From positions 1-40,623 of the IMG/VR virus record IMGVR_UViG_3300027712_000951: a stretch of DNA of 40,623 bases, one strand, 5' to 3'. The notes beneath the pieces are model-generated. The model saw only the letters and a program-made list of their open reading frames with translations. It was not told the origin of the DNA and made no database searches. The position numbers were made by a program, and so were the translations under genes. Below, in pieces: positions 1 to 36,049 of this stretch. This stretch comes from a virus. Positions within the stretch are counted from its first letter, which is position 1. The number at the start of each line of letters is the position of its first letter.

Positions 1-204
1 TTTGACGACCTAGATGCTTGGCTCAATCACTGCCGTTTCAATCTTCTTCCATTCAACAAAAGTGACCTATATCGGTCTACCAACTATCGTCGGTTCCAAC
101 AAGAGCAAGAGTATCTTGAACGCAAGGCACGTCGTGAAAGCGAAGGCCGTGCAGAACCAGTTAAGAACAATAACTGGAATCGTGATCGTCAACAACAACG
201 ATAA
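1..204 (+). CDS. 3' end of an unknown phage gene (partial)
   Basis: An open frame runs from the first base of the window to a TAA at 202-204, giving 67 codons with no start in view. The visible tail begins FDDLDAWLNHCRFNLLPF and becomes strongly charged, with many Arg, Glu, Gln and Lys, then ends in a Gln/Arg-rich run (DRQQQR). It is preferred over the overlapping 65-residue frame starting at base 14 because its stop overlaps the next start codon (TAATG), which is typical of translationally coupled phage genes, and because its composition looks protein-like. I do not recognise the family. The basic, probably disordered C-terminus would suit a nucleic-acid-binding or virion protein, but that is only a guess. 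Confidence 0.6.
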   Translation, partial: FDDLDAWLNHCRFNLLPFNKSDLYRSTNYRRFQQEQEYLERKARRESEGRAEPVKNNNWNRDRQQQR

Positions 205-1373
205 TGCGTAAACTATTTTATATGGGGCTTGAGCCATATAAGGCTCGCTATACTCTACAGTTACAAGACTGGAACGAATCTGTGTTTAAACGCAGGGGTA
301 TTGATTATATCATTGTACCCGGTGAGACACTTAGCAACGATCAAGCCATTGTAACTGGACAGGTGTTAGATGCACACGGGCGAACATACTTTGGTATGTC
401 GCAGCTGATGAATCTAGTTAAGATGATGAAGGCTGGAGAATGTTCCAATGAAGATGTTATCTACTTTGAAGATATGTTTCAGCCAGGCATTGAGTCTCTA
501 CCCTATATTCTTCAACAAATCGACGCATCTTCCCGGCCTAGGATTTATGTTCGCTGTCTTGCTCAGTCCATCGATCCTGACGATTTTGTTCATGTATGGG
601 GCATGTCTAAGTGGATGGGTCATTATGAAAAAATGCTTGACTCGTTTGTAGACGGTGTTCTGGCCACAAATGAGGAAATGGTAATGCACATGAAGATTGC
701 AGGTTGGCAGGCACCAATCTATAATATTTCAGGATTGGCATTTGGCAAGGCAGAAGTGCAGAGTCGTGTTACTCATATTAAACCGTTTGCAGATCGTAAA
801 TTTCGTGTAGTCTTTTCTGCACGTTGGGATCAAGAAAAGCAACCTGATTTCTACATGGATTTAGCAGAACGTGTTAAAGAAAAGAGTCCATTGATCGAGT
901 TTGCTGTATGTAGCGGCAGTAAATTAAAATCTAATAATGATAGTTATATGGCACGTACTAGAGATTTGCAAGATCGAGATATATTAACAATTTACGAAGA
1001 TTTAGAAAAAAATGATTACTACGATATCGTTAATGATAGTCGTGTTGTGTTTAATTGCGCCCTTCAAGATTGGGTTTCCAACACAGTCAGCGAAGCAGAT
1101 AGTCTTGGGTGTAATGTTCTATACCCTGCTTATAGGTCTTTCCCTGAAACTTTTTCTAATGACCATACACGTTTATATATTCCCTGGAGTATAGAAGATG
1201 CAGAAGCAAAATTGATTCCGTTATTGCATAACCCAAGTCCTAACTTGGGTAAGATTAGTGATTACAATGACGGGACAATTGATCGTGTAATTGATATTAT
1301 GCAAGGGCACGGCGAATCTATGTTGCGTATGAGTACAGACTATCGAAAGCATACTCGTGAGTCAAAGTATTAA
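204..1373 (+). CDS. GT-B fold glycosyltransferase (family 1/4-like)
   Basis: This 389-residue protein probably transfers a sugar from a nucleotide-sugar donor to a host surface glycan, a virion protein or modified DNA; the acceptor cannot be read from sequence. A C-terminal Rossmann-like half is visible around residues 195-345: FRVVFSARWDQEKQPDFYMDL resembles the first strand-helix of GT-B C-domains, and VSEADSLGCNVLYPAYRSFPE matches the E-x(n)-G-C-x-V/P segment that contacts the donor. The N-terminal half is less conserved. The ATG at 204 overlaps the upstream stop by one base and the gene overlaps the GTG start of the downstream epimerase by 17 bases, so these genes are very likely co-transcribed. 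Pairing with a GalE-type epimerase fits donor supply plus transfer. The family is confident; the donor and acceptor are unknown. Confidence 0.75.
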   Translation: MRKLFYMGLEPYKARYTLQLQDWNESVFKRRGIDYIIVPGETLSNDQAIVTGQVLDAHGRTYFGMSQLMNLVKMMKAGECSNEDVIYFEDMFQPGIESLPYILQQIDASSRPRIYVRCLAQSIDPDDFVHVWGMSKWMGHYEKMLDSFVDGVLATNEEMVMHMKIAGWQAPIYNISGLAFGKAEVQSRVTHIKPFADRKFRVVFSARWDQEKQPDFYMDLAERVKEKSPLIEFAVCSGSKLKSNNDSYMARTRDLQDRDILTIYEDLEKNDYYDIVNDSRVVFNCALQDWVSNTVSEADSLGCNVLYPAYRSFPETFSNDHTRLYIPWSIEDAEAKLIPLLHNPSPNLGKISDYNDGTIDRVIDIMQGHGESMLRMSTDYRKHTRESKY

Positions 1374-2355
1374 GACTGTTATTATTACAGGTGCGATGGG
1401 CTTTATCGGTAGTCATACCGCCAAGGCCTTTCGCCGTGCTGGATATCGTGTAATCGGTATTGACCGAGAAATGACTATTCCATCTGCTGCTCATTTCTTA
1501 GATGAATTGATCGTTGACGACTTTGTAAATATTACTGCAACAGTTGCCAAGATAAACAATGTAGATGCAATTATACATATTGCAGGTACAAGCCTTGTGG
1601 GTCCTAGTATTGCAGATCCTGGCGAATATTATAGAAACAATACAGCCAAGACGAATCAAATGTTAGATGATCTTGCTCTGGCAGGCTGGACTGGAACTTT
1701 GATTTTCAGCAGTAGTGCAGCCGTATATGGCAATGACTACGTGCGTCGTTGGGTAGAAACTGATCGTATAAATCCAATTAGCCCATATGGACATAGTAAG
1801 GCCATGTGTGAGCAGATCATACGAGATCATACTCATGCATATGGACATCGTAGTATTGCATTGAGGTATTTTAATGCATGTGGTTGTGATCCAGATGGAG
1901 AATTGGGCAATGTTTGGGACGATACCCATTTGGTTCCAAGGGTTGTTCAGAATATGCTCAAGGACCAAACAGTTGTGATCAACGGTGGAAACTTCAAAAC
2001 CGAGGACGGAACCTGTGTAAGAGACTATGTTCACGTATCTGATATTGCAGATGCTCACGTTCGAGCAGTGGAATTATGTAGTAAGTCGCTTGACAAAAGT
2101 GAATTTAGAGTGTATAATATTGGAACAGGGACGGGAATTAGTAATCTTGAAATAGTACTATCGCTTGAAATGGCAACTGATCAAACAGTTAAATATAGTA
2201 TTGGTCCAAGAAGATCTGGTGACCCTGATGAATTGGTAGCTGATCCTGCTAGATTTAAAGCAGACACAGGATGGGAACCAAAGCATAGTCATTTGGCAAA
2301 TATAGCATTTACTACATTTAATTGGTCTAAACAGTTTAAAGAAAGCACATCATGA
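1357..2355 (+). CDS. galE: NAD-dependent UDP-glucose 4-epimerase-like (GalE) protein
   Basis: A 332-residue extended SDR enzyme, close to the roughly 338 residues usual for GalE. It likely interconverts UDP-glucose and UDP-galactose, or the N-acetyl forms. The NAD-binding motif TGAMGFIGSH is at residues 11-20. The catalytic Ser-Tyr-Lys set is intact: FSSSAAVYG (Ser120) and SPYGHSK (Tyr144, Lys148). RYFNACG, GTCVRDYVHVSDIADAH and the YNIGTGTG segment are also characteristic of GalE. The start is a GTG inside the upstream gene; there is no clear Shine-Dalgarno sequence, so translation is probably coupled. The TGA stop overlaps the ATG of the protease gene (ATGA). It forms a surface-sugar module with the upstream glycosyltransferase. 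A related 4-epimerase with another substrate is possible. Confidence 0.88.
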   Translation: MSQSIKTVIITGAMGFIGSHTAKAFRRAGYRVIGIDREMTIPSAAHFLDELIVDDFVNITATVAKINNVDAIIHIAGTSLVGPSIADPGEYYRNNTAKTNQMLDDLALAGWTGTLIFSSSAAVYGNDYVRRWVETDRINPISPYGHSKAMCEQIIRDHTHAYGHRSIALRYFNACGCDPDGELGNVWDDTHLVPRVVQNMLKDQTVVINGGNFKTEDGTCVRDYVHVSDIADAHVRAVELCSKSLDKSEFRVYNIGTGTGISNLEIVLSLEMATDQTVKYSIGPRRSGDPDELVADPARFKADTGWEPKHSHLANIAFTTFNWSKQFKESTS

Positions 2356-4343
2356 AATTTAAATTACTTGCAACCTGCTTGGCAACACTGTCATTCTGTG
2401 CTGCTGCACAAAATGTCACACCGTGGCAAACTACGGAATATTACCGTAGTCGTACCTTGGATCCAATCAAGGCCGCTAGTGCATATTCAAGAGGGTACAC
2501 CGGTGTTGGTAGCACAATTGCCATCCTGGATACTGGTATTGACTTGAATTCCGTAGAATTTAAAGATCGTATCGTGCTCACAAAAGACTTTTCTGGAAGC
2601 GCATCTGTTCAGGACACATACGGACACGGTACTCACGTAGCAGGTATTGCTGCTGCTGCCAACAACGGAGTTGGCATGGAAGGTGTAGCATTTGGTGCCA
2701 ATTTGATGATTGGCAAAACTAGTGCCGGTTCCATTGTATTTTTCAACAACTATATCACTGCATTGGATTGGGCATCTACCAATGGTGCCACAGTTGCCAA
2801 CATTTCTGCAGGTATGACAATCCCAACTACTATTAATCCTACATTGATAGCCCCTGGAATTTATACCACAACGCTAACCAACACTGGAAAATTTAGTACC
2901 ACTATTACTCCAGAGCAGATTGCTAGTGCAATGAAAAATGACATAGTATTAGTTGTTGCTGCCGGAAATGACGGAAAACCTTTTCCAACTGCTCCGGGAC
3001 AATTTGCCACTGCGGTTGATAGCACCGGTAAATTGATTCTCGGTGGCCGTATGCTTATTGCAGGTAATTGGAATTCACAAAGCAATCAACTTGGTGCAGG
3101 TAACAACGGTGCTGGCACGTTATGCATGGTTGCAGTCAAAAATGTTTGCCAGGACAAATACAAGACTTCTGATTTCTACATCATGGCACCAGGTATGGGA
3201 ATTTACTCCACTGTGCCAAAGACTGTAAACTCATCTGGTTATACCAACATGAGTGGTACGTCAATGGCTGCTCCTGCTGTGTCTGGTGGTGTTGCAATTA
3301 TCCATCAAATGTGGCCACAAATGACCGGTGCAAACATTGTCCAGTTGCTGTTGGTCACTGCTAACAAAAACTTGCCTGGATATAAGGTTGAAATTATGGG
3401 CCAAGGTCTAATGGACTTGGACAAGGCAACTCAACCAGTTGGTGCAATTGGTATTCCTACTACAGGCAAACTGACCAGCTTGAGCAATGCTGCTCCAGTA
3501 TTGATTACTGGTGGGACCGCCAGCACATCCAAACTTGCCAGCTTCATGGTTGTGGATTCATTTGAACGTGACTTTTACTCAGAAGGTAAAAATCTTACCA
3601 CAGTAAATACTTCTGCACCGTTCAATCTTGGACAGACTGCAATGAATTACACTAGCAAGAATGGATACACTCAGTTCAATAACTATTCTGGTGTTAGTCA
3701 CGCAGCGGCAGGTAATATTGAAGTTAATGCATATCACGAAGATCAACAAAATTCCGGTCTTGGCTTGATTGAAGTATCTTACAACAAGAAAACGTCTGTT
3801 GGAGATGTAAAGTTTACCGTGGGTACTGTTACAGAGAACAATGCCTGGCTGGGTAACACTGTGGCCAATAGTGCGTCAAATCTAAGCACCACGTATATCG
3901 CAGGTGTTGGTTTTGGTAAAGAGTTTAACTCTGGTACTACTGTGTCAGCTAATGTTATGCATGGTATGACCTACACCAAATCTAGTGGGGATTTAATTAA
4001 GAGTATTGATGCTGTAATGAGCTACAGCTGGAATTTAAGTTTGGAACAAAAACTCAATGATAACCATACTGTTGGTGTTATGCTGTATCAACCAGTAAGC
4101 GTGTATGATGCACAGGCTAATGTAAACATTCCAATTGGGTTAGATGCTGATTACAATGTAGTTAACACTGATCGAATTAACTTGGCTGCTACTGTGAAAG
4201 AAATGCGTACAGGCATGTATTACAAGTTTACCAACCAAGGTGCAACCAATGCATTGGCTTTTGTTGAAACACGAATGAACTACCAAGGACAAGCAGGTGT
4301 CAATGACACTGTAATTGGTGTAACACTAGCACATCGCTTCTAA
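2352..4343 (+). CDS. Secreted S8 (subtilisin-like) serine protease with C-terminal barrel-like domain
   Basis: This 663-residue protein has three visible parts. (1) Residues 1-19 (MKFKLLATCLATLSFCAAA) are a classic Sec signal peptide with an Ala-rich cleavage site. (2) Residues about 40-360 are a peptidase S8 domain with the full triad: Asp60 in AILDTGIDL, His92 in GHGTHVAGIAAA and Ser304 in SGTSMAAPAVSG, with the oxyanion Asn206 in AAGNDG. (3) Residues about 380-663 are beta-strand-rich and end VIGVTLAHRF; the terminal Phe with alternating hydrophobic residues matches the outer-membrane beta-barrel C-terminal signature, and the roughly 280-residue length suits an autotransporter barrel. The layout matches S8 autotransporters of Gram-negative bacteria. 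The ATG overlaps the galE stop by four bases, so it belongs to that operon. A palindromic terminator follows. A protease is certain; surface display is inferred. Confidence 0.88.
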   Translation: MKFKLLATCLATLSFCAAAQNVTPWQTTEYYRSRTLDPIKAASAYSRGYTGVGSTIAILDTGIDLNSVEFKDRIVLTKDFSGSASVQDTYGHGTHVAGIAAAANNGVGMEGVAFGANLMIGKTSAGSIVFFNNYITALDWASTNGATVANISAGMTIPTTINPTLIAPGIYTTTLTNTGKFSTTITPEQIASAMKNDIVLVVAAGNDGKPFPTAPGQFATAVDSTGKLILGGRMLIAGNWNSQSNQLGAGNNGAGTLCMVAVKNVCQDKYKTSDFYIMAPGMGIYSTVPKTVNSSGYTNMSGTSMAAPAVSGGVAIIHQMWPQMTGANIVQLLLVTANKNLPGYKVEIMGQGLMDLDKATQPVGAIGIPTTGKLTSLSNAAPVLITGGTASTSKLASFMVVDSFERDFYSEGKNLTTVNTSAPFNLGQTAMNYTSKNGYTQFNNYSGVSHAAAGNIEVNAYHEDQQNSGLGLIEVSYNKKTSVGDVKFTVGTVTENNAWLGNTVANSASNLSTTYIAGVGFGKEFNSGTTVSANVMHGMTYTKSSGDLIKSIDAVMSYSWNLSLEQKLNDNHTVGVMLYQPVSVYDAQANVNIPIGLDADYNVVNTDRINLAATVKEMRTGMYYKFTNQGATNALAFVETRMNYQGQAGVNDTVIGVTLAHRF

Positions 4344-4356
4344 CAGCGTGAACAAA

Positions 4357-4382
4357 AATAACTGCCTGATCAGGCAGTTATT
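4357..4382. terminator. Perfect 26-bp palindrome, likely terminator of the subtilase operon
   Basis: A perfect palindrome centred between 4369 and 4370, containing ACTGCCTGATCAGGCAGT, starts 13 bases after the subtilase stop. It can form a GC-core hairpin with an AT-rich base. The T-tract on the plus strand is short (TTATTCAC), while A-rich sequence precedes the stem, so the element could act on both strands. It sits directly upstream of a new promoter, which supports a boundary between transcription units. Confidence 0.65.
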
Positions 4383-4394
4383 CACATACAAGCC

Positions 4395-4423
4395 TTGACA
4401 AACTGTCAGGCGGCATTTATAAT
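4395..4423 (+). promoter_or_regulatory. Perfect-consensus sigma70 promoter
   Basis: TTGACA at 4395-4400 and TATAAT at 4418-4423 are separated by exactly 17 bases, so both hexamers match the bacterial sigma70 consensus fully. The predicted start, near 4430, leaves a leader of about ten bases before the ATG at 4441, containing AAGG as the only ribosome-binding sequence. The -35 box lies inside a small inverted repeat, TGACA-AAC-TGTCA. Its -35 region shares CTTGACAAACTG with the promoter at 11758. This implies early transcription by host RNA polymerase. Confidence 0.85.
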
Positions 4424-4440
4424 ATTATATAAGGCCAATA

Positions 4441-4905
4441 ATGAAATCACTTTCTAAATTATTTCTAAATACACTGGACCGTCTTGGTCGCAAACGTGTA
4501 GTAATGGACAGACAAAATGACGAACCCTATCTTGAACGATACTATCTTTTTCTCAAAGATAGAAAAAATTTCCCCTTCAATATCTTTATTCATAAGTTTC
4601 TTAAATCAGATCCCGATGATGTGCATGATCACCCATGGCCTTATGCTACGTTGATTCTTAAGGGTGGATATTGGGAATGGGTTCCAGTATTTGCTGATGG
4701 TAAGAAGGTTAGCGAAGTTGCAAGATGGAGAGGTCCTGGACACTTCCGTATTAGTAAACCAACCAGTTATCATCGCATTGAATTACAAGAAGGTGTTACT
4801 CCCTGGACATTGTTCATGCCCGGTCCACAAAAGAGAGAGTGGGGATTTCTTGTCAAGAATCAGTGGATACATAATGACGAGTATTTAAAGAAAAGAGCAC
4901 AATGA
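4441..4905 (+). CDS. Cupin-fold protein, function unknown
   Basis: This 154-residue soluble protein has the features of a single-domain cupin. A metal-binding His pair lies in VHDHPWPYATLILKGGYWEW (His62, His64), matching cupin motif 1. A second-motif His is in KPTSYHRIEL (His111). No signal peptide or membrane segment is visible. Cupins include sugar isomerases and epimerases, dioxygenases and ligand-binding proteins, so the reaction cannot be assigned. The gene has its own strong promoter immediately upstream. It ends at 4905, directly abutting the stop codon of the opposite-strand homing endonuclease. Metal-binding cupin architecture is well supported; the substrate is unknown. Confidence 0.72.
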   Translation: MKSLSKLFLNTLDRLGRKRVVMDRQNDEPYLERYYLFLKDRKNFPFNIFIHKFLKSDPDDVHDHPWPYATLILKGGYWEWVPVFADGKKVSEVARWRGPGHFRISKPTSYHRIELQEGVTPWTLFMPGPQKREWGFLVKNQWIHNDEYLKKRAQ

Positions 4906-5652
4906 TTACGGTTTGTGTTTACAGTTATTACCGTGATATTTTGCAAAGTGAGGTTTTCCGGTCGAGACTTGACAATAAACACATGTCACACATATTTTAT
5001 TTGGATTAATCGTTCCGTTTTTACGCCTTGTTTCTATTCCTTGCTTAATACTTTCCAGAGTAGTTGCGTTTAATGTTCCATTTGCTCGTTTAGTTGCTAA
5101 TTGTTTTTCTATAACTTCAGTAGTTGTTATGTTCAATGTTCCGTTAAGTTTCTTGGTCGCTAACTGTTTAGCTATGCTTTCCGGCCTTGACAAATGATTA
5201 TTCCTGGATTTCTTTGTCAAAATTCCTTGCTTAATACTTTCCGGGGTAGTTGGGTTTAATGTTCCATTTGCTCGTTTAGTTGCTAATTGTTTTTCTATAA
5301 TAACAGGGTTACTTGCTTCATTATTATTTTTAATACGAGTTTTCTGAATTTGCTGTGCTATAATAGGTGGCATTGCTCCTCCGCTACCGTTTTCTATTCG
5401 TAAGTTAGCCCAATCATTGCTATTAACAATATCCCAAATGTTACTGTAATAAACTCCCCAATAACCAAGCTCTTCTTTAGTTTGGCATTCTCGTATAATT
5501 TCTGTAACAATATTAGGCCCGTGTTTGGCTAAATGTATTCTCCAATACTTGCCTGATCCTAAATACTTAAATGGATTCTTTCCTTTAGTTTGGCAAAGAT
5601 ACTTCAACCCTGTTGTGGTATGTGTCTTAACCATGAGATAATAAATAGACAT
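4906..5652 (-). CDS. Free-standing GIY-YIG-like homing endonuclease with repeated DNA-binding module
   Basis: A 248-residue protein if it starts at the ATG at 5652; an upstream in-frame start at 5712 would add 20 residues that do not look conserved. AGGA lies about ten bases before the chosen start. The N-terminus (MSIYYLMVKTHTTTGLKYL, then KYLGSGKYWRIHLAKHG and YYSNIWDIVNSNDWANL) matches phage GIY-YIG-like homing endonucleases. Five repeats of about 20 residues follow (pattern I-x-KQLATKRANGTLN-x-TT-x-ES), resembling nuclease-associated modular DNA-binding motifs. A C-terminal Cys/His cluster (CVTCVYC ... H ... H ... C) looks like a zinc finger. No intron is seen, so it is free-standing. It is on the minus strand among plus-strand genes, as expected for a mobile insertion. 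Its stop abuts the cupin stop. Confidence 0.8.
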   Translation of the reverse strand: MSIYYLMVKTHTTTGLKYLCQTKGKNPFKYLGSGKYWRIHLAKHGPNIVTEIIRECQTKEELGYWGVYYSNIWDIVNSNDWANLRIENGSGGAMPPIIAQQIQKTRIKNNNEASNPVIIEKQLATKRANGTLNPTTPESIKQGILTKKSRNNHLSRPESIAKQLATKKLNGTLNITTTEVIEKQLATKRANGTLNATTLESIKQGIETRRKNGTINPNKICVTCVYCQVSTGKPHFAKYHGNNCKHKP

Positions 5653-5731
5653 GCTGATAGTTCCTATAAAACTGTTAGAGCTGGTGGATATTTCGAGTAT
5701 CGCGACCGGCACTTTTATTTATCCTTATATG

Positions 5732-5760
5732 TTGACTTCTATTCAGAAGTGTTATATTAT
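5732..5760 (+). promoter_or_regulatory. Sigma70-type promoter before mazG, with inverted repeat in the spacer
   Basis: TTGACT (5732-5737) and TATTAT (5755-5760) with a 17-base spacer each match five of six consensus positions. An inverted repeat ACTTCT-ATTC-AGAAGT (5735-5750) fills most of the spacer. A 15-base palindrome, GTTATATTATATAAC (5751-5765), overlaps the -10 region. Either could be an operator. The downstream leader carries a good ribosome-binding site, AAGGAAAACT, before the ATG at 5783. Confidence 0.6.
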
Positions 5761-5782
5761 ATAACATCTATTAAGGAAAACT

Positions 5783-6058
5783 ATGAACAAAGACACTGAG
5801 ATTTTATTAATTTTATCCGAAGAATGCGCGGAAGTAATTCAAGCGGTTAGCAAAGTAAGTCGATTTGGCATTGACAATGTTAAACCTGGTAAACCAAAAA
5901 CCAATCGTGAACACCTAGAAGAAGAAATTGGTGATCTGTTGGCAATGGTTGACATCATGGTAGAGTTTAGTGTAATATCGTTAGATAACTTAGAAGTTGC
6001 AAAACGTGCTAAGATTGAAAAATTAAAGAAATGGTCAAACATATATGAGCAAGATTAA
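5783..6058 (+). CDS. mazG: MazG-like nucleotide pyrophosphohydrolase
   Basis: A 91-residue single-domain all-alpha NTP-PPase. The signature metal-binding pattern is present: EECAE at residues 13-17 and E48-I-G-D51 (EEx2E ... Ex2D). These enzymes hydrolyse NTPs or dNTPs to the monophosphate and pyrophosphate. In aquatic phages the short MazG is common and is thought to tune nucleotide or alarmone pools during infection, although the substrate varies. The gene has a strong ribosome-binding site and its own promoter candidate. Its last 14 bases overlap the start of queE, so the two are translationally linked. The length fits single-domain phage MazG rather than the two-domain bacterial enzyme. 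dUTPase-like or HisE-like relatives are less likely. Confidence 0.85.
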   Translation: MNKDTEILLILSEECAEVIQAVSKVSRFGIDNVKPGKPKTNREHLEEEIGDLLAMVDIMVEFSVISLDNLEVAKRAKIEKLKKWSNIYEQD

Positions 6059-6917
6059 AATCGCAGAATTGTTTTATTCGTTGCAAGGAGAGGGAAAATA
6101 TATGGGAGCACCTAGCGTGTTCCTTAGAACGTTCGGCTGCAACTTTAAATGTGGGGGCTTCGGTATGCCTCGTGGCGAACTCAGCAAGGAAGCAAATGAA
6201 GTAGCAGTTATGAATGCAATGCATCCATTTACCAAATACGAAGAACTGCCATTGGTCAGTACAGGTTGCGATAGTTATGCCAGCTGGCATCGAGACTTTA
6301 AAAATCTCAGCCCTATGATTACTAGTGATGCTATTGTAGAACGCATTATGGAAATTCTCCCGCAAGATCATTGGCGAGATGAACATCTTGTTATTACAGG
6401 AGGCGAGCCCTTGCTAGGTTGGCAACGTGCTTTTCCGGACCTGTTGGATCATCCCAAGATGGCAGCACTGAAAGAGATTACATTTGAAACAAATGGTACT
6501 CAAAAATTAGATCCAGAGTTTAAAACATATCTACGCAAGTGGGGTACTGGGCTCGATGAACACGGTTTTGGTTACCCACGTGAAGTTACATTTAGTGTTA
6601 GTGCCAAACTTCCTTGCTCAGGTGAAAAGTGGGATGATGCTATCAAACCAGAAATCGTTTGTGAGTATGAACAAGTTGGCACAACATATTTGAAGTTTGT
6701 CATTGCTACAGAGCAAGACTTTGCCGACGCAGAATGTGCCATTGCGGCATATCGTCGAGCAGGATTTAAGGGTCATGTTTATCTAATGCCAGTTGGCGGT
6801 GTAGAAAGTGTCTACGCAATGAACAATAAGAATGTGGCCGTGCTGGCAATGAAACATGGATTGAGATATAGTGATCGACTTCAAATACCTCTTTTTCGCA
6901 ACGCATGGGGCACTTAA
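6045..6917 (+). CDS. queE: 7-carboxy-7-deazaguanine synthase (QueE), radical SAM enzyme with unusual cysteine spacing
   Basis: A 290-residue radical SAM protein. QueE converts 6-carboxy-tetrahydropterin to 7-carboxy-7-deazaguanine, a step to preQ0 used for tRNA queuosine and, in several phages, for 7-deazaguanine DNA modification. Family marks: IAELFYSLQGEGKYMGAPSVFLR (residues 6-28), the Fe-S segment FGCNFKC (Cys32, Cys36), and the SAM-binding HLVITGGEPLLGW and ITFETNGTQ segments. The standard third Cys of CX3CX2C is absent: GGFGMPRG follows Cys36, and the segment STGCDSYASW, which resembles the usual C-D-T/S-x-Y, appears only at Cys75. The apparent motif is therefore C-x3-C-x38-C. It overlaps mazG by 14 bases and precedes metK, which makes its cofactor. 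queC, queD and folE are not in this window. Confidence 0.87.
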   Translation: MSKIKIAELFYSLQGEGKYMGAPSVFLRTFGCNFKCGGFGMPRGELSKEANEVAVMNAMHPFTKYEELPLVSTGCDSYASWHRDFKNLSPMITSDAIVERIMEILPQDHWRDEHLVITGGEPLLGWQRAFPDLLDHPKMAALKEITFETNGTQKLDPEFKTYLRKWGTGLDEHGFGYPREVTFSVSAKLPCSGEKWDDAIKPEIVCEYEQVGTTYLKFVIATEQDFADAECAIAAYRRAGFKGHVYLMPVGGVESVYAMNNKNVAVLAMKHGLRYSDRLQIPLFRNAWGT

Positions 6918-21717: not shown

Positions 21718-24700
21718 TTAAAATCCTTGTAATGGTTGTCCGGTACTATCTGTAAATGAAGTACCTGAGACATCAGTTAATAATAAATTACCACCGTAAT
21801 AGTAATTATCTGGTAATTCTGCAGGTTTTTGCTGTAAAAATCTAGCAGGCAATGTAGTACTATCCATTAGTGATTGTACTCCACCATCATTCCATACTTT
21901 AGATTTTTTAACTTCTTTCTTAATAATAACTAGTTTAACGTTATCTTGTATACCTTGTGCAATATTTAATGTCAGCGCCTGGGTAGCAATATCAATAGTA
22001 AATTCAGGTGGAGAATATGTAAGTCCTCGATATACATAGCCATTTATAGCATCTGCTTCTATGGATTTGGTATAGACCCACACTTGATTTGTAGAGGTAA
22101 CTACATACGCTGTCCCAATGGTAGTAGTATAAGGCAATAATTTTACAGTAGCGATATTTCCAACTATATTACATTCTAGGCTATCGTAAGATATAGTAGT
22201 ATCTTGTTGGTATATTCCAGTTTTTCTTAACAGGCGGCCACCATAATATACCAATACTTGATCAACAGCTGGTATTGTTATATCAGATATTAATTTATTT
22301 TCCACGAAGTAATCAACCGGTGCAGCAACTGCTGCAATACTTAAAGTTATTCCATTGTTAGTAATCTGATGCTGGGTTCCGGTATTTAAAATATTTGGAG
22401 TTTTATTAATTATATAAGTGTTGGTAGTTGATTTTGTTATATGAGTTTGACGATAGATATTTTCTTTAAAAGGTATAGTCTGTTCTGGACTCTGATCAAT
22501 TACTCGCGTATTGATATCTGAATAAAAACTAGGTGCAGTGCCCAATGTACTTCTGCGTAATTGGCTTAGTATATTCCCTGTTACCTTAAAGAATTCAATA
22601 CGTTCGCCATCAATGATTACAACTCCTGGAATTTTCTTAGAAATTAGCGGAGGAGTGAGTGCCCTAGCATCAGCAACTTGTATTTCTGTATCTGTAAAAT
22701 GTAAAGGAGTAGTTAGATATGTAGTATCTTGTTTAGATAGACGTTTAAAATGTGTCCTATCAAATATATCATTGAATATTCTGTATCCAAGAATAGTAGA
22801 TGCTAACTTTTCACTGCTAATACTTGTTATCACAATAACATCGTCCGATGTATGATGATACTGATCACTAAATTCTACCGTTACTTGATCATCAAGTATA
22901 TTGTAATCTATCTTTCCAGTCAATGGGATCCTATTAACAGTTACCCACACATAGTTGTCATTTAATACAGGTCGACTAATTTTATATCTCTTACTTGGAT
23001 TTCCATCAAATTTTTCAGTTCTCATCATCATACCATCATGATCAGTATATGTAATGACTTTATATGTATCCCCGGCGTTTGGATCTATAATTATTAATGG
23101 CGTTGCTGAAGAACTATTGATGTCGTAATCAAATCCTATGCTTCCATTTGTTTCCGGATTTATTGGGCGGCCGACAATTGCAATTGCATTTTTATTTGAT
23201 AACATATTATCAACAATTGTAACCGTGCCTTGTTCCGAATTAACTGTATAATCATAATCTGATACCAACTGATATCCATTGATATATACTCTAACTTGGC
23301 TAGAATTAAATGTGCCTGCTGGGTGAGATTTATGAGTATCTATTGCAAATGTCTGAATAGCAGGCCCAACTGTGTCATAATAAGTTATAATTGGTGGAAT
23401 TAGTCGAGTACGAATTCCATTGGATGTGACTTCAACAATAGATTGTGCTACCCATGGTTCTTTCTTACCTGGAAATTTTGATAATGTATAATATTGATTG
23501 CTACTATCTATTGAAATAATTTCTTCCGTAATTTCATTAAAATACTTATAATCATTATTGAAGAACCAAGCCTGTACAGTGTTGGTTCCAGGTAAAAGAT
23601 TGTATACATTCACAGCTGCTCTATGATTTTTACTATTGGCATAGGTTAGCATATAACCATAATCAGTAGAAGTTGTTACTGGAGAAATAGTAATACCATT
23701 TACAGTAACGTATGCACTCTTGATACTACGGTAATCTGATAAACTTTCTACTTGAGCAAAATTTGTACCATTGACTGTGATTATTGCAAAATCAACAACT
23801 CCAGCTTCTGTATCTGGGCGGCCACCACCTATACTTAAAATAGTATATCCCAATTTACCTGTTATTGGTTGAGGCGGAATAATAATTTCATTGGTTTCCC
23901 AATTTATTGCAAATTGATTAACTGCTGTAAAATTAGTAGTGGTACTATAATTAAACTGCAAATTGTTAAAAGTTACAACAATATTGTTAGAACTTGGCGG
24001 GACAATACTTAACTTACCAGTAGATGTAGTTCCGGCAATTATATTAGTATACCCGGCAAATACTATAGGAGCACCTTGAGAATTTTTAGTATAAACATTG
24101 ATGCCCACACTTTCTGTCACATAGCCAGGTACTAATTCTTCCGGAGCGTAACTTGATGCAGCAGATAAGAATATATCACCATCTATAGTAACGTCTTCGG
24201 GATTAATTCCTAATGCATTTACTCGTGTAGATGTATTCCAAGTACCGCCTTCAATAACGCTGTCAATTGCATTGTTGTCAGCATTATAGTTCCAAAATTC
24301 AATACTGTATCCAGGATACACTGTACTAGATAGAGTAGAACTAAATGTCACATTACGAGTTTCTGTATTAATTTCAGTAATAACAACATCCGATGAGGTG
24401 CTAAATTTATTAATAGTTGATCCAGTGATGTTAGCATACTGCCCTACAGTTAATCCCGTAGTAGTTGTTAACATGACAGTAGAAATACCAGCAGTGGCAG
24501 TATTGGCAATTTTAGCAGTTGTATAATAACTAACTGCATCAGTCCAGGCAAAACTACCAGTTGGGATATATCCTACATCTAATGAATTATTATATCCAAG
24601 TGGCAATCCATTAATTACAGTGTTGGGATATTCAATACCAGTCATTAATTGTGCAAGATCTTTTCCTGGCATTCCTGATGTTGGAGAATAATAACTTAAT

Positions 24701-27700
24701 ATCCGTTCAGTGGCATTTAACAACTCTGTGCTTTTTATATAAGTAACTTCTAATACTTGATCCACTGCTGGATCAAAATTTAAGAAGTATATTCTGTTAA
24801 ATTTCTTATTGTAACCGTTGTACATCCCGGTATAATACTCTATGGTATAATCTGAACGCAATACTGCACTCTTATCAAGGAAAACTTGAATCTTAAATTT
24901 ATCAGGTTCAGCTAACCAATTTAATACAAACTTATTGTCTGCACCATTGCAAATAAATGTATCAGTCACTGACCTATCACCAATTTGGTCATTGCGGGTA
25001 GTTCTATCAAACTTCATACCAATCTTATTGGTACGAACTTTTCCGTTAAATAACTGTGCATAGGCAGTGGCTACAGTAGTTGCACCGCCACCAGTAATAG
25101 TGACAGTTGGTGCAGTTTTATATCCAGAGCCAGCTTTGGTTACTTCAATAGAAACTACTTTTCCTGAATTAATATATGCAATAGCAGTAGCGCCTGCTCC
25201 TAAATCTCCCTGTGCAGCAGTTATAGTCACAGCAGGAATTGAAGTATAGCCGGCGCCAGCTTGCCCAACTGAGATGCTACCAATTATGGATGAATTATTA
25301 TCTGCCCAAGATTTCCAAGGATGTCTATCTAATAATGCACCATTTGTTTCAACAGTATCAAATATTCCAGTAGATTTATTATAGACCGATGGCAAATCAA
25401 AATCAGTAGTATAAGATCTACTTGATTCCAATGTTGAATAATCCGTAGTAAAAGTTCTAATGCTGGTATGATAAGGTTTAACCTCATTAACATAGTTCTC
25501 AAAATATTCACTATTTTGTAATTTGTAAATAGCTCGTTGATCCAAATTTCCTGCTAGGTTCTTTACATTAATAAAAGAAGTCTTGAACGCCCAATCTAAT
25601 AATTTTTGTTCTGATAAGGCATACTTTACTGCTTTGAAGAAAAATAGATTCCAGTTGATTTTTAATTCATTTATAAACAAATCTTTCTTTAGAGCAGAAA
25701 GAATATATTGAAGTTCAAGATCTGGAGTTTGATCAAATAAAGTTTGATCGTAACTGTTAAGATAATCAAATCCATAATCATTGGCAGGGAAATTCCAGAT
25801 TGAATCTAAAATTTGTATTGTGCCGCGCTCACTATAAACAATATCGTATTGATTGCCAAAAGTTCCTGTAATACCATTAGCTGCTCTTTCTAATACAATA
25901 TATCTACCATCGCCACCGTTTTTAACTTTTACATATTGTCCAGTAGTTAATTCCAATGTATTAAGTTGATAAACATCATCAATTGTAGCAGCATAATCAA
26001 CATATTGATTATATGTACTGCTGCTCCAATCTTGATACTTCCAATACATTGTTGTATTAAATTTTTGTGTACGATATCTCATCCAAGATTTATTAACAGT
26101 ATCATAGACAAATATAGTCCACTTATTGTTATAAAGATTATCAGCTAATACAATAACAGTATAAGGTCTAACTTGTAGTTCAGGAGATTGATTATCGGGA
26201 AAATTGTCTCCAGCATCATCAATCGTTGCAGAAATAATTCTACCTTGCTCATCTATTTTGGTAGAAATTTTAGCGGTAGAAACCACATCGCTAACAACTG
26301 CAACGGTAGGAGCTATCTTATATCCAAATCCTGGGTTATCAATACTAACGCTGTGAATTTTTCCATTCTGTACTTTGCAAGATAGTGCCGGTAAAACAAA
26401 CTGTCGAGCATCAATAATTGCAAGCCCTTCGTTATCTTCTACAATTTGATCATAGGCGTGACTATATTGATCAGGAATAAGTTCCTGCTTGTTTAAGTTA
26501 GCAAAATTATAATTACCAGTAATTTGATTTTTAATCAACACACCGTTGGTAAATTCTACAAGAGTTCGTAACGCTTCTAATCTATTCTTGAATAGAGTTT
26601 GTTGCGGTCTAATTCCAATGCCGTATCGTGTTCTTGAAGTTAATGATACATCTGGAACAAGATTGCCAAAACTATCGTGACCAATTAAACTGTCAATTAG
26701 TTTTTTCTCAAGCAAGGTATTAGGTCTGCTTTCTGCGGATCCTTCCTGCATCAATAACCATTCAGTATGCTTAGGAATAACATTATTAATTTCATCAGTA
26801 GCAATGTTAATATGTAGTCTATCAGCTACCAACATTGATTTAATATTAGATAAAAGAATTGCATCTTTAGATATTACAGATATATATTTTAATCCGTAGC
26901 TAGTAGGATTTGCAATTATAGAAGCCACTTGGTAGCTGCTAATTCTTCTATTTTTAACAGAAGGTACTGTTACTTTATTTTTTACCCAATAGTAATAATA
27001 ATTGGTAAATGCACCTGTTATAGAACTATAAACTTGTTTAACAGATACTACAGTGTCGTTACCAAATTTTGGTTGACCACTAATGCCTTCAGTCAGCCCA
27101 GCGGCAGTATCAGCCCTAGAGCTCCATTCGCTAGGTAAGTATTCTGATCCTACCCATTCATAGACGTCAATAGTTGCACCCGGGAATAATTGTCCCCAAT
27201 TGTTCTTTCTAAAAGATAATTCGCCCTGCTCATACCATTGGTATTTTACAGAACTTAGATCCCACCATAATTCACCTAAGTGATCATCCATCCAACTTGT
27301 GGATGTATCATTAACTGTAGATGCAATACCAATTGAATATACCGCAGGATCAAATGCTGTCTTATATTTTAATTCTTGTTCAGCAATACCTGCAATTTTT
27401 CCTTTTAATGGATCAATAACATCTAGATACTCTACAATTTCTTCATTGAAAGAATCTATCAACATTACTTTTTGTACAGTATCAACAGCTACTACACTAT
27501 CTTGTTGACGTAATGTGGTAAAACTGCTAGTGGTATTTGTTGTAAATTTATAGAATCCACTGGTTATTGCTGAATTTGCAATTGCAGGTGCACCTACAAA
27601 AATAGTATTAGAATTAATGGCTGTACTATTACCGTAGGTTGTGCCAGATACAGTCAATGGTGGAGTTAGTTCTTCAGATAATACAAATCTATCAAACTTT

Positions 27701-30700
27701 CTACTATACACATATACCGTGCCGCTGCCGGTAACTTCACCATAGAAATTCGTAGCGTCTGCATCAAAGTATGCTGCCCCATCTGTTTGATCAAATGTAG
27801 TAGGTATTCTGCTATTGGTTCCTAATGCAGATATTGCCAATACGTCTGCTGCTGTGTTAATAGAAATTGAAGAACCAAATTTCATTGCTGAATTTGGCAT
27901 TGGATTTGCAATGTCTAAAACAAAAGTAATAACAGAATTTACAATTTTGTATATTGCTACTCTGCCATAAGATTGATCATTATTTCGAATATTAGGAGCA
28001 GAAATAAACAAGTAATCTCTATTTGGAGAGACTGTTACTGCTTCACCAAAACGGCTATTTCTACCGTATGGCGATGTAATAGTCTTGAGCCAGGTAGTTC
28101 TAGAATATACTTGTACCAGACCAGTATTATTAGAATATCCAGGAGCACCAATGGCAATTATGTCTGCATCATCGGACCCACTGATAGCGTATCCCCATTG
28201 ACTTCCTTGAGTCAATGACACCTGCGATGTAAGAGTATTAACTGAAGTTACATTGACTACATTATCTATACTAGTAGGTGAGATTGGATAATAGACATTG
28301 GTTGTAGCACGAGAATCAACTGTGTAATAGTATACAGCACCAGTTCCAGTTGTAAGTGTTTGAGGTGCTCCAACCAATAAAAGTTTTTCGTCAACGTTGC
28401 GCTCCACAAATATAGAAGAGCCAAATCTTTCATAACTAGATGGATTTGGACTTAGTAAGACAAACGTATGAAAATCTTCATCATTAGCAACTGCATCAAT
28501 ACCACTAATTTTAACCAATCCTTCTTCTACCAACATAGAAGGCATTTCTGCCCCAATAGAGTATCTAACTGATCCAATGTCACCAGATCCTTTAACATTG
28601 CTGGCGGCCGGAGCACCGGCAAATATTAAACCAAATCCACTATTGGCAAATTGATGGTCATCGTATACTACAGAGTATCCAAACTCAGTTGGTGTTCCAG
28701 GAGTTTGATAATTTACATTGTGATTCAATGTATATTTGAATTTAAATCTGTTATCTGTATTATTGTATACAAATACACCACCGTAGTTATTGTATTCGTA
28801 ATTGCCGGGCGCACCTACTACAACAATATTGGCACCAGAACGATTACTAATGCTCCATCCTAATTTTTGATCTGTAGTAGAAATTGAACTGGTTCTAGTA
28901 TTGCTAGAATAATTTTTAGTCTTTTTGTAAACTACCCATTTTCCAGATCCATCATTGTTAACCCAAAATTTAGTGCCAATTGGCTGTTGCAACAAATTGC
29001 TATCTGGCGGTAATGTATCAAAACTGTCATATCTTGCACTTTCAAACTTAAACATCTGTGCAGGGCTAACTGGCGCCGTTGTAGGAACTGCCTGTAAAGT
29101 TGATGCTACAGTAAATGAATTAAGAGATGGTATATATTTAACGACATAAATTCCATCAACTGTACTATCAAACTGTGTAATAGAAACAATTTCGCCATCA
29201 TACAAATTGTGAGCTGTGTCTGTCGTAAAAGTTAGTTCAACTCCAGGATTAGATACCACAACTTGTATAACTTTTGCTGAAGAATTTACATATCTTAAAA
29301 CGTCCCAATCTCCATCCTGTTTGAATCCTAACCAGATTACATCACCTTGATTAATACTGCCATTGTTGGCAATATCTAGCAAGCTGTTTTGATTATAGGC
29401 AGTGGCAGTAACATCGTCTAATCTTACATAGCCAGCTGTAGTAAATGCAAAGTTGTCGTCGGTAGTGGCAAATGTTGCTGTTGGAACATAATCAGTAGGT
29501 GTAATAATGCGTTCAGTTGCATCACTATAATAGATCAAATCATTTGGTGCAGGTACTCCTCTAACGTCAACAAACTTAACAATTTGAGGATTGTCAACAA
29601 ATGTACCTTCAATCAACGGAACTTCTAATTCTTGGTATGTTTGATAAGATCCATACTGTCCAATCCTAAATGCCCATTCTTCGGTAAAAGTCAATTCACC
29701 TTGTAAGTTATATAGGCTAGCCTTGGCTAACTTAGTTATAGAATTTTTAGTGCCTTTTTCTTTAATAAATCCTTGATAGAATTTATACTGTGCAATTGGA
29801 TTAGTAAAGATATTATTTAGATAAACACGCGGTGTGTATCCAATCAAATGTTGCGCCATTTTTTGCTGTGCGCTGTCAAAGTTATCAATATCTAAACTAT
29901 AGAAATCTTCAAACTGATTGATCTTGTAATCAAAGTTAGGTAGTAGACCTGCTACTGGTTTTTTGCCAAGAACATCCCATTGTGTAAAATCAAATTTACT
30001 AGCTGCTGTAATTCTTTGATTGGCAGAATAATAGTTGCCACTAAAGCGAACAACCTCGCCAATACGATAATCACTGTATTTTTTCCATTCTGAAATTTGG
30101 GCAGTATCATAAACAAATCCAGGGCTGAAGTAATCCCCATCCCAGTTAGATGTTCTAAAACCTACCAATTTCATTCTGTACTGACGATATCCAGTTTCAA
30201 TATCATAGATAGTATCATTAAACATAGTGGTATTTTTAAATACCATAGCGTGTTCTTTTTGCACAGAATGCAACATGGCAAAATATATACCATCAGTGGA
30301 ATTAACAGTTTCAATTGTGCAAACTCCATCTTGCCTATTCACATTTAAATTGGTGTGAGGCATTGGAGTACCGTTGGCCTGTAATATATTGTATTCGTAA
30401 AAACTGTCAAAGATACTATCTACTACTGAATTGGCCAGTTGATATTTGATTTGACCGGCAAATGGACTTAGAGTAATAATACTGTTAGGTGCCCAGTTCT
30501 GTGTAGTCCAATATAAAAATTCTTTGCCTGTAAAATTCCAATCAATTGCTGCGCTTAGATCAGAATTATATTCATCAAAAATAAATCCTTGACTTTCCAA
30601 CCACTTGCCATAGCCAATAATTAAGTCATAAACTTCTTGTACAGTTGTATATTCAGTTCCATACGGAATTTGTTTTTCAATGGCATTAAACTTAATGGCA

Positions 30701-33700
30701 GTCTGTACTGTTGCACCACCTACTGTGGGCAGGCCTGGTAGCAATTGGAAATAAACCAAGTTAAATGTTGAACCACTTTGATGGCTAGTTTTAACTCTAT
30801 AGAAATTATTTCCGTTGGCTACAATTTGACCTGCTTGATAAAATTTTCCAGTTGATGCTGAACTGGCAGTTGTAGTATCAGCACTAGATAATCCAGTTGC
30901 GCCGCCAGTGGTACCACTGGTCCAGGTCACATAAGATTCAGAAATACCACCAACTGTGATTGCAGCAGTATTGGTATTACGTATAGGTTCATATACTGTA
31001 AAATAAGGGTGTAATCTATCATATCCTTTAACTACAAATTTTCCATTATCTTTTTGTACAATGATACCAGAGATAGCCGACGACTTAATAGGATTACTTG
31101 TATTCAATATTAAATCATAATCTTCCTGTGGCAACAAAGATCCAGGACTTGTAGATGTAGGATCAATAGCATCAATGACAATTTGTAATTTATCTTTGCT
31201 GACAAATCCACCCACCTTGTGGAATAAATTAAAATCTAGATAGGTAAGATCTTGTGATAATTCTTGTATGTAATTTGAAGTACGCTGACGACCAATCTCA
31301 GAAACATAAACACTATAACCACTGGTCAGTGCATTGTTGTTGCCATGTATAACTGAATCTTTTGGATTTAAGAAAACATGGTTAGAACCATATGCCCATT
31401 GCCCTACAATGTTCTTAGAAATTCGACTAGGATCATACATCAATGCTGCATACTCGGCAGGCTTGGCCAAGGCCAATAATCTCTGTACAGCAAATGGCCA
31501 ATAACTACTACGTCTCCAAGCAGTTTCAGCTGGACCATGGTCTCCAAACTTCCACGGTTGACGACGACCAAATGTTGTATAGTTTGTTATTAAAGTTGTA
31601 ATATCAACTAATTCGCCAGTATCAGTCACTGGTATGATTTCAAATAGGCCAGGGCGAGCATACAATGGATCAATCTTGCCAGTACTGCGATTTAATCCCC
31701 GTTCAAGATCTCCCCATAGCAATCCATTACCCGCAGTGTATGGGGCAACTCCGTATGTTTTTTCCCACCAGGTTGGCTTATTTGTAATTCCAAGCATTTC
31801 CCAAGGATGTGTGTCAGGACGATCAGTGTCGTAAAAACGTTTAAAAATTGCACGCCAAGATCCAGTAGCACTCTCTGCTAATGCTGCACTAAATCCATTT
31901 TGATAATTCCAAGTACGGGCATTATTTTCATCTAGAAAATTATTTAAGGTATAATCTATACCATAAAATCCTGCCCATTTAAGAAAATCACCACTTAATA
32001 TTTTGTTAATCTCATCTTCTGAATATTCACTAGCACGAAATGCTCCAGAAAAAATAGAATTAACATTAAATAAATCTGATTGATATTGTGCTTTAATGTT
32101 ATTGTAAACACGCTTTTCAAATTCAAGAATAATATCATCTCTAAAATCGTTATAGGCAATAGTAATACTGCCATCGTGGCCTTGAATCACATTAACTGGA
32201 TTAATATAAGTGTTATCCAAATAAATGCTAGGCTGGTACTTTGGATACAATCCTAATTTACTAGGTGTAGGAGGAACAAAAGAACCTAGAGTAGAATAAT
32301 AATCATTTACCACCAACTTGTCACCAGGTGTCAACTGTACTAGAATTTTTACAGCAGCGTCAACTACGTCAAATTCATAATCGCGATTCAATACCAATTG
32401 ATTACCATTTAGATAAACCAAGACTGACCTTGTGCTTAATACAGTAGAATCAAATTCACTAACAAGAGGATATACAACATTACGAGAATCAGTAACTATC
32501 CAATCCCTAGAAGTTTTATCTGATCCATAAGCAATCATATCTGATAGATAATAAGGTGACAACAAATCTTTGTTGACATTTAACTCAGTTAATACTATAT
32601 CAAGATCTGTTGCAGGATCTGTTTGATCATTTATTTCTGAAATTCTTTTCAGGAATGCCATCTTGAATTGATTATATTGATCACCAGCTTTGACAATTGC
32701 ATCAATTACACTATGTTCTTTTTTACCCACAAACACGCTGGCAAAAGACATTGGTATAGCATTGGCTATTAATCTATTCCCTAGAGATCCAGCATTAGAC
32801 AAATCTCTTAAATTACTCGAGCCTGGAAATTTGCCTGTAAATCTCGTAGTTTTATCAACAATAGAGTGTAATTGATCAGTTAGTTCAGATAACGTTAATG
32901 ATGTAATTGGTCCATTTAAAGGATTGTTAGTTAATCCCAATGGTGATTCATAATACCCGTTAGCGTTAGGAGTAGCGGTAGTGCGTATTTTTAATAGTAC
33001 ATTTGACGCATTGGCCAAAGGAGTAGCAAAATTAATTAAAAATTTGCCACTAGTTTTGGTAATTGTATAATCAAAGATTGCAGAATTATTAACAAATACA
33101 TCCAGCAACACATCAGCCGTAGTTGGATTATCAATTGCTATCAACTCTACAGTAGAAGTTGATCCCACGGTTGTCTGGAATTGCAGAATTGGTATTTGAT
33201 AATTTCTAGCAGTTTCCCATACATTAGCAAAGGTACCATTGTTGAACTTGCAATATGTGATAGCTGTAGATATCTTTGTTTCTTGATTATTAATAACCAA
33301 AGAAATAGTTTCAGATGAAAAATAATTCTTAAACAAGTAACTACCGACACCAACACTATTCTTATATTTTAAAGGAAAGCCAAGTACTGCATCATTTACA
33401 CCTGTGCCAATATCATATCCAAAAATCTTATTTCCAGTAAAATTACTAAGATGCTGAGATTTATCACTATAACTGTATCCATGATTGTCAAATAAATCAA
33501 ATAGTGGTGCTTGATTTATAGTGGTTCGTTGTTGGGCGAATTGCCATGTGTCACCGTTAAACCACCAGTTGGTACCTGCATGTGTCTTTCCTAGATTCAC
33601 ACCAGTTGAAGATAATTCTACGGGTGTATCAACTAGAACCAAAGTTAGTTTAAGAGAGTTATCAATATTAACATAATCAACTTGATAAATTTTTCCACGA

Positions 33701-34798: not shown

Positions 34799-36049
34799 TT
34801 ATTTTCCGCTGGTGTTCACTATTGAGTTTGTGTTTAATTGAGAAGCAGTTATTGCATCAATTATTTCTATATCTGATGTTGTTGTGCCGTTGATAAAAAT
34901 TTCGTTGCTCATACATGCAATCTCATACAAACTTCCAAAATTATTTGCTGTTTTAGGAACTATAACAAAGTTTGTTATATCCGGAGTCATTGTGTTCATT
35001 ACATAGGTTGACAATTCGCTAAAATAAAAAGATTGTCCAAATGACCAATTTTCTAAAGAAAAGAATTGCTGTATGGAATTTAATATTCTTGTTTTTAATT
35101 CATTATCGCTAACAGGTCTGGTAGAATTTTTTACAGCCTTAAATGTTGCTTGTAAATTAATATTTGCCTTGCTGCCAAATAATGCTTTGTATTTAACCGG
35201 TTGAAAAACCATCTCATCGCTTATTGTTTTGATGGATTCTAGTACACTGGAAAAATTTTGTTCTAGACTTTGACTAGTTGGAGCAAGCGGTTCTGCGCCA
35301 GCGCCCGATAATAACCAAGTCCTATATTCAGTATCGTAAGATGCTGTTAGCAAGTATATATCAATGATATTGCTCTTGCTTGGATCAATTCTTCTATCTT
35401 CACTACTGTTATGTATGTAATGAAATTTTAATCCACTTCTACCCGGGTAGGCAAAATAATTAGGTTCATAAATCCAAGGTTCAGTTGAATTGGCCACAGC
35501 GGTAGAATAACTCTTTATTACATTATAAGAAGAGTCATAAAAATAATATAAATCACCATTTTTGGGAGTTTCTATTACATCAGCTGGGGTCGGAGCAGTA
35601 TAAAATTCAGCACTATCAACTAGTTTATATCTTAAACCATCGGATAACTTTTCAAAATATACAAATTTATCTTTAAAATCAGTATTAGGATTCTTGCTAC
35701 TTGGTACCACAATATTGTTAAATGCATCTGGATCATCAATCTGTCCAGAATTATTGTAATCGTAAAAACTTACCTTGACTTTTTTAGGTTCAGAATAGCC
35801 GTCAGATTCAACAACTGGACTATCAATTTGCCAACGATAATCTTTGCCTAGACTAACGGATGTTGATGTATTTGAGGTGTTTATAGATAGAACTGCAATT
35901 TGATCTTTGACAACTGTATCAGTAACAAAGTCGTAGTTGATAGAATTTGCATCAATAAAAAATGAAGTTTCTTTATCACTTTCAAAAATGTAGTCAGTGA
36001 TCCTATATCGCACTTTATATCCTGTACCAGTCCAAATAAAAGCTACCAA
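34799..36049 (-). CDS. Baseplate-region protein of unknown identity
   Basis: A 416-residue protein between gp6 and the giant structural protein. It overlaps the gp6 stop by seven bases and ends one base before the next start, so it belongs to the baseplate operon. The sequence begins MVAFIWTGTGYKVRYRITDYIFESDKETSFFIDANSINYDFVTDT; the C-terminus (NELKTRILNSIQQFFSLENWSFGQSFYFSELSTYVMNTMTPDITNFVIVP) looks like the terminal domain of baseplate J/gp6-type wedge proteins. Position alone would make it a gp7 or gp8 counterpart, but I see no direct similarity to T4 gp8, so the symbol is left empty. Confidence 0.68.
   Translation of the reverse strand: MVAFIWTGTGYKVRYRITDYIFESDKETSFFIDANSINYDFVTDTVVKDQIAVLSINTSNTSTSVSLGKDYRWQIDSPVVESDGYSEPKKVKVSFYDYNNSGQIDDPDAFNNIVVPSSKNPNTDFKDKFVYFEKLSDGLRYKLVDSAEFYTAPTPADVIETPKNGDLYYFYDSSYNVIKSYSTAVANSTEPWIYEPNYFAYPGRSGLKFHYIHNSSEDRRIDPSKSNIIDIYLLTASYDTEYRTWLLSGAGAEPLAPTSQSLEQNFSSVLESIKTISDEMVFQPVKYKALFGSKANINLQATFKAVKNSTRPVSDNELKTRILNSIQQFFSLENWSFGQSFYFSELSTYVMNTMTPDITNFVIVPKTANNFGSLYEIACMSNEIFINGTTTSDIEIIDAITASQLNTNSIVNTSGK

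Follow-up and report, generated by a model that had tools for sequence, protein, structure and literature searches.

The virus record IMGVR_UViG_3300027712_000951 of IMG/VR was analysed along its whole 40,623 nucleotides, a stretch that we call the window and that is the virus record itself. On its plus strand, at 2352..4343, lies a gene for a protein of 663 amino acids in which a secreted subtilisin-like protease is joined to a predicted outer-membrane barrel. We consider it probable, at roughly 0.6, that this is an accessory gene for an autotransporter-like subtilase that, displayed on the infected cell, cleaves surface proteins of the host. Sequence or prediction supports well that the catalytic triad is intact, that a signal peptide and a barrel-type C-terminus are present, that the gene is accessory and under purifying selection, and that bacterial homologues exist. 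The surface topology, activity, target and benefit of the protease are what we infer, and they would fit together as follows. The product would be made in an infected Gram-negative cell and exported by Sec, its C-terminal 12-strand barrel would insert into the outer membrane, and the N-terminal subtilisin domain would reach the cell surface in the manner of bacterial subtilase autotransporters. There the domain, either tethered or self-released, would cleave host surface proteins. The likeliest gain would be that the cell loses receptors or other proteins of its surface, by which superinfection may be blocked or the progeny kept off host debris.

The gene is an open reading frame (ORF) whose coordinates, frame and length were checked. 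Its product begins with a Sec signal peptide at residues 1-20 (2352..2411, plus strand, as are all parts of the gene; MKFKLLATCLATLSFCAAAQ), recognized by a rule-based check that places cleavage after about Ala19 or Gln20. The S8 subtilase domain follows at about residues 39-360 (2466..3431) and matches PF00082 over residues 53-350 (E 5.5e-34; 118.2 bits against a cut-off of 21.8). Relatives were collected from IMG/VR, where a first scan found 27 loci and a profile scan 166 viral stretches encoding them; 80 of these were retained, giving 57 distinct full-length proteins for comparison. In all 57 the catalytic residues D60 (2529-2531), H92 (2625-2627) and S304 (3261-3263) and the oxyanion N206 (2967-2969) are invariant, together with C258 (3123-3125), C266 (3147-3149), D402 and R406. 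The protein is thus a member of the S8 family by its sequence, given the profile match above cut-off and the full conservation of triad and oxyanion asparagine. The same rules find a signal peptide in 55/55 relatives with a usable start. Both the export signal and the intact Asp60/His92/Ser304 triad had been recognized in the initial annotation of the window, and the family bears them out. The median ratio of non-synonymous to synonymous substitution (dN/dS) is 0.075 in the S8 part and 0.069 in the barrel (45 pairs of moderate divergence), and therefore both parts are under selection. In some relatives an Ala-, Lys- and Glu-rich spacer separates the signal peptide from the protease; it spans up to about 440 residues, a length seen in a protein of 1115 residues (L147:6666-10013). 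In another relative, on a 353-kb phage contig (L157:8001-9962), the last ~240 residues diverge from the family barrel, possibly a swapped barrel. Several family contigs exceed 100 kb, and the largest measure 335 and 353 kb.

The S8 domain is separated from the barrel by only about 85 residues. Within this distance conservation and the structure model mark a linker hairpin with the motif VVDSFERDFY (residues 397-411; 3540..3584), which has a counterpart in the bacterial homologues, and a pair of helices is predicted ahead of strand 1 as a candidate pore segment (residues 426-441; 3627..3674). The predicted 12-strand outer-membrane barrel occupies residues 447-663 (3690..4340) and ends in VIGVTLAHRF; it is indicated by structure model, fold search, homology and amphipathy. 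The full-length structure model was poor, with a predicted local distance difference test score (pLDDT) of 62, and for this reason the barrel was modelled separately with AlphaFold2 from an alignment of the 57 sequences. The resulting model has a pLDDT of 87, a predicted template modelling score (pTM) of 0.82, 12 long strands, which is the number anticipated from the first inspection of the sequence, and a short helix pair ahead of them. Its best fold matches in the PDB are nearly all outer-membrane barrels, EspP and Hbp first, followed by OmpG and porins (E about 2e-3, probability 0.99, template modelling (TM) scores 0.3-0.4). The alternating hydrophobic residues and terminal Phe noticed at the outset also hold across the family: the column-averaged alternation of strand hydropathy is 2.15 against 1.16 +/- 0.24 in shuffled sequences, with 0/5000 shuffles as high, and the final barrel column is Phe in 54/57 and Trp in 3/57 proteins, one further residue following the aromatic in 4/57. 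A membrane barrel at the C-terminus is therefore well supported as a structural prediction. A PDB sequence search with the barrel profile yielded nothing useful and no match to any solved autotransporter barrel, and no model in Pfam or NCBIfam matches the barrel.

By its modelled build the protein would be an autotransporter of type Va, having a Sec signal (by rule), a passenger domain, a predicted 12-strand C-terminal barrel and a terminal aromatic residue in 57/57 relatives. Helices 426-441 are confidently predicted directly ahead of strand 1 and may lie inside the pore. Several observations weigh against the reading as a surface-displayed protease. The classical autotransporter barrel family PF03797, in which the barrel had first been placed, does not accommodate it: HHalign against about 30 alphaproteobacterial PF03797 barrels gives a probability of 2%, the window protein has no match to PF03797, only 2/57 members match it weakly (best E 0.0028), and the bacterial homologues examined lack it as well. 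The TM-scores against solved barrels are just 0.3-0.4, the glycosyltransferase and epimerase genes next to the protease are unlinked to it, and with an even number of strands the N-terminus of a barrel stays periplasmic if no passenger is threaded through to the outside. Strand closure and the pore helix stay predictions because of the missing PF03797 homology and the low TM-scores. Since a classical build is combined with no PF03797 match, we file the protein as subtilase-autotransporter-like, with a barrel family that the libraries leave unmodelled.

The same features allow a different topology, in which an outer-membrane barrel is combined with a protease domain that remains in the periplasm, where it would degrade envelope proteins or aid lysis and release. 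By default an even strand number puts both barrel ends in the periplasm, some barrels, for example BamA, have N-terminal domains in the periplasm, and the lack of PF03797 homology agrees with such an arrangement; the two invariant cysteines suit the oxidising periplasm, although they suit the surface equally. On the other hand, the confident helix pair and the conserved linker ahead of strand 1 resemble the pore plug of an autotransporter, and the characterised bacterial subtilase autotransporters work at the surface (PMC9977779). We judge the periplasmic arrangement unlikely.

Proteins of the same domain order occur in bacteria, mainly in Alphaproteobacteria. A pattern scan of bacterial genomes at first gave matches at the S8 level only, the patterns being short. 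The barrel profile matches bacterial proteins with both domains in 14/398 genomes of the phylum of L103, 2/399 of the order of L103 and, at a stricter limit, 32/385 of the alphaproteobacterial class of L035. Searches with hmmsearch between the barrel and the S8-barrel proteins of Pseudomonadota reach E-values down to 5.8e-44, and HHalign relates phage and bacterial barrels with 99.5% probability (2e-23, 196 columns). The closest comparison is offered by one family of alphaproteobacterial lipoproteins (L185/L203, L236-L238), in which S8 domain, DSFERDF-like motif and barrel follow one another as in the phage copies. Identity is about 36% across roughly 600 residues, which is most of the length of L185. 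Most L185-type proteins have a lipobox followed by a Gly-rich N-terminus, whereas the phage proteins show a plain Sec signal there or a long spacer rich in Ala and Lys. The L185 homologue is chromosomal, on a 2.75-Mb contig beside panBC and gcvP (L203), and 6/61 genomes match this family including its own, three other full-length copies being 47-49% identical. This closest bacterial homologue (L203:12124-13953) also adjoins genes that are resolvase-like and integrase-like by sequence appearance.

In the tree, the phage copies and four L185-type alphaproteobacterial proteins form one group with support of 100; the phage copies as a sole clade receive 42. With this low support for a phage-only clade the direction of transfer is no more than inferred; the wider spread in bacteria favours transfer from bacteria to phage. 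It had been proposed that the gene derives from an autotransporter of the bacterial host; the bacterial kinship stands, whereas direct acquisition from the present host is not supported, the nearest copies being only ~36% identical.

The protease gene occupies a variable position in the phage genome. Upstream of it lie genes for a glycosyltransferase (GT; 204..1373, plus strand) and a GalE-like epimerase (1357..2355, plus strand), which overlap end to end, and the protease ORF begins four bases within the end of the GalE-like gene. The remaining variable stretch (4441..6058) holds a cupin-like gene (plus), a minus-strand ORF (4906-5712) and MazG (plus), and its right border is a QueE-like gene (6045..6917, plus strand). 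In the close relatives L308 and L320 the GT (80-84% identical) and GalE (66-70%) directly precede QueE with no protease between them; the gap between GalE and QueE (window 2352-6044) that contains four genes in the window is thus empty there. Of 35 loci that have the nearest QueE together with sequence upstream of it, 34 lack the protease, and the sole locus bearing it, L241, is identical in sequence to the window gene. In other phages it follows FolE or lies in surroundings with a T4-like helicase. Given a gap that is either filled or empty and neighbourhoods that differ, the S8 gene is cargo in a variable stretch. A functional operon of GT, GalE and protease had been suggested in the initial annotation; the argument is weakened by close relatives that hold GT and GalE directly before QueE without the protease, and we reject such a unit in view of L308 and L320. 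Sixteen further large contigs with related baseplate or QueE genes gave no full match to the protease and two weak matches to the S8 part only.

Genes of nucleotide and deazaguanine metabolism flank the protease in the window, and in other loci FolE, QueE and a gene resembling TGT are often close to it (L002, L025, L153; TGT by appearance only). Such neighbours suggest deazaguanine modification of DNA in these phages. The late promoter of T4 type, TATAAATA, shows no enrichment (2 found, 6.8 expected) and is uninformative on timing.

The accessory location amid metabolic genes could also speak for a protease at the surface, or released from it, that supplies peptides to the infected cell, and the homologues in aquatic and other Alphaproteobacteria have no assigned role. 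Such a supply is improbable in our view, as an infection is over within hours and would gain little, and the neighbourhoods viewed contain neither a peptide transporter gene nor another gene for uptake beside the protease. It is very improbable that the product belongs to the virion, for example as a tail protease whose C-terminus is a beta-rich fibre: phage subtilases exist and the C-terminus is indeed beta-rich, but the signal peptide in 55/55 relatives, the outer-membrane-type fold, the homology to cellular S8-barrel proteins and the position of the gene outside the structural cluster, far from the tail genes and on the opposite strand, stand against it. The view of the product as a subtilase that is exported and carries an outer-membrane barrel, probably no part of the virion, has held.

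The tail region offers some further observations. The T4-like baseplate genes lie on the strand opposite to the protease, and their relatives in cultured phages come from phages of Gram-negative hosts, in keeping with a product that has an outer-membrane barrel. The gp6-like baseplate wedge gene (34799-38220, minus strand) is split into two overlapping ORFs by a frameshift or an assembly error; in five related large contigs it is a single frame of about 1127-1174 residues. An ORF of 4359 residues (21718-34797, minus strand) lies between the tail-fibre and baseplate genes; for its last 1260 residues Pfam gives no match and PHROG a single weak one.

Among characterised proteins, SphB1 and NalP are lipidated subtilase autotransporters that cleave surface proteins (PMC9977779). 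They share with the phage protein the signal peptide, the S8 passenger and the C-terminal barrel; they differ in being bacterial and lipidated, and the phage barrel profile matches no solved autotransporter barrel. Ssp of Serratia marcescens (PDB 8e7f), found in the whole-protein fold search, also has a subtilase passenger. It carries a 248-residue beta-helix alongside the subtilase domain (PMC9977779), unlike the phage protein with its short distance from S8 domain to barrel. The best fold match of the barrel is A0A6J5TBB6 (TMq 0.69, E 3.7e-14), a protein of 689 residues from an uncultured Caudovirales phage; it is a database entry named 'Peptidase S8/S53 domain containing protein' for which we found no description. 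PHROG 3677 'protease' and the subtilases of the Bacillus phages SP-15 and Goe3 have the S8 domain in common with the window protein, but the alignment to the latter, whose hosts are Gram-positive, is confined to the S8 region at about 30% identity or less. Cultured phages gave S8-domain matches only, mostly in phages of Gram-positive hosts, and a barrel match is absent from 50,697 phage records. Outer-membrane barrels had been considered rare in phages; this does not agree with BFVD, where many phage entries are so annotated, including as 'Autotransporter beta-domain'. Literature searches on phage-encoded autotransporters found no description of such a phage protein, and a cyanophage paper deals with YadA-type tail proteins. 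We thus found no described phage example of this fusion of secreted subtilisin-like protease and barrel, although bacteria are known to have it.

A broader reading, which we hold only tentatively and regard as doubtful, is that a phage lineage has maintained and diversified a class of surface-displayed protease of its own, whose barrel falls outside the known autotransporter families, and uses it to strip receptors from infected cells, excluding superinfection or achieving release by proteolysis. The result draws attention to a family of bacterial S8-barrel proteins for whose barrel neither Pfam nor NCBIfam has a model, and the clean pair of neighbourhoods with and without the gene makes the accessory gene testable. 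The surface editing by phages that is known to us works through lipoproteins, membrane proteins or changes in sugars. If active at the surface, the subtilase would provide phages with a protease route to edit the outer face of the infected Gram-negative cell.
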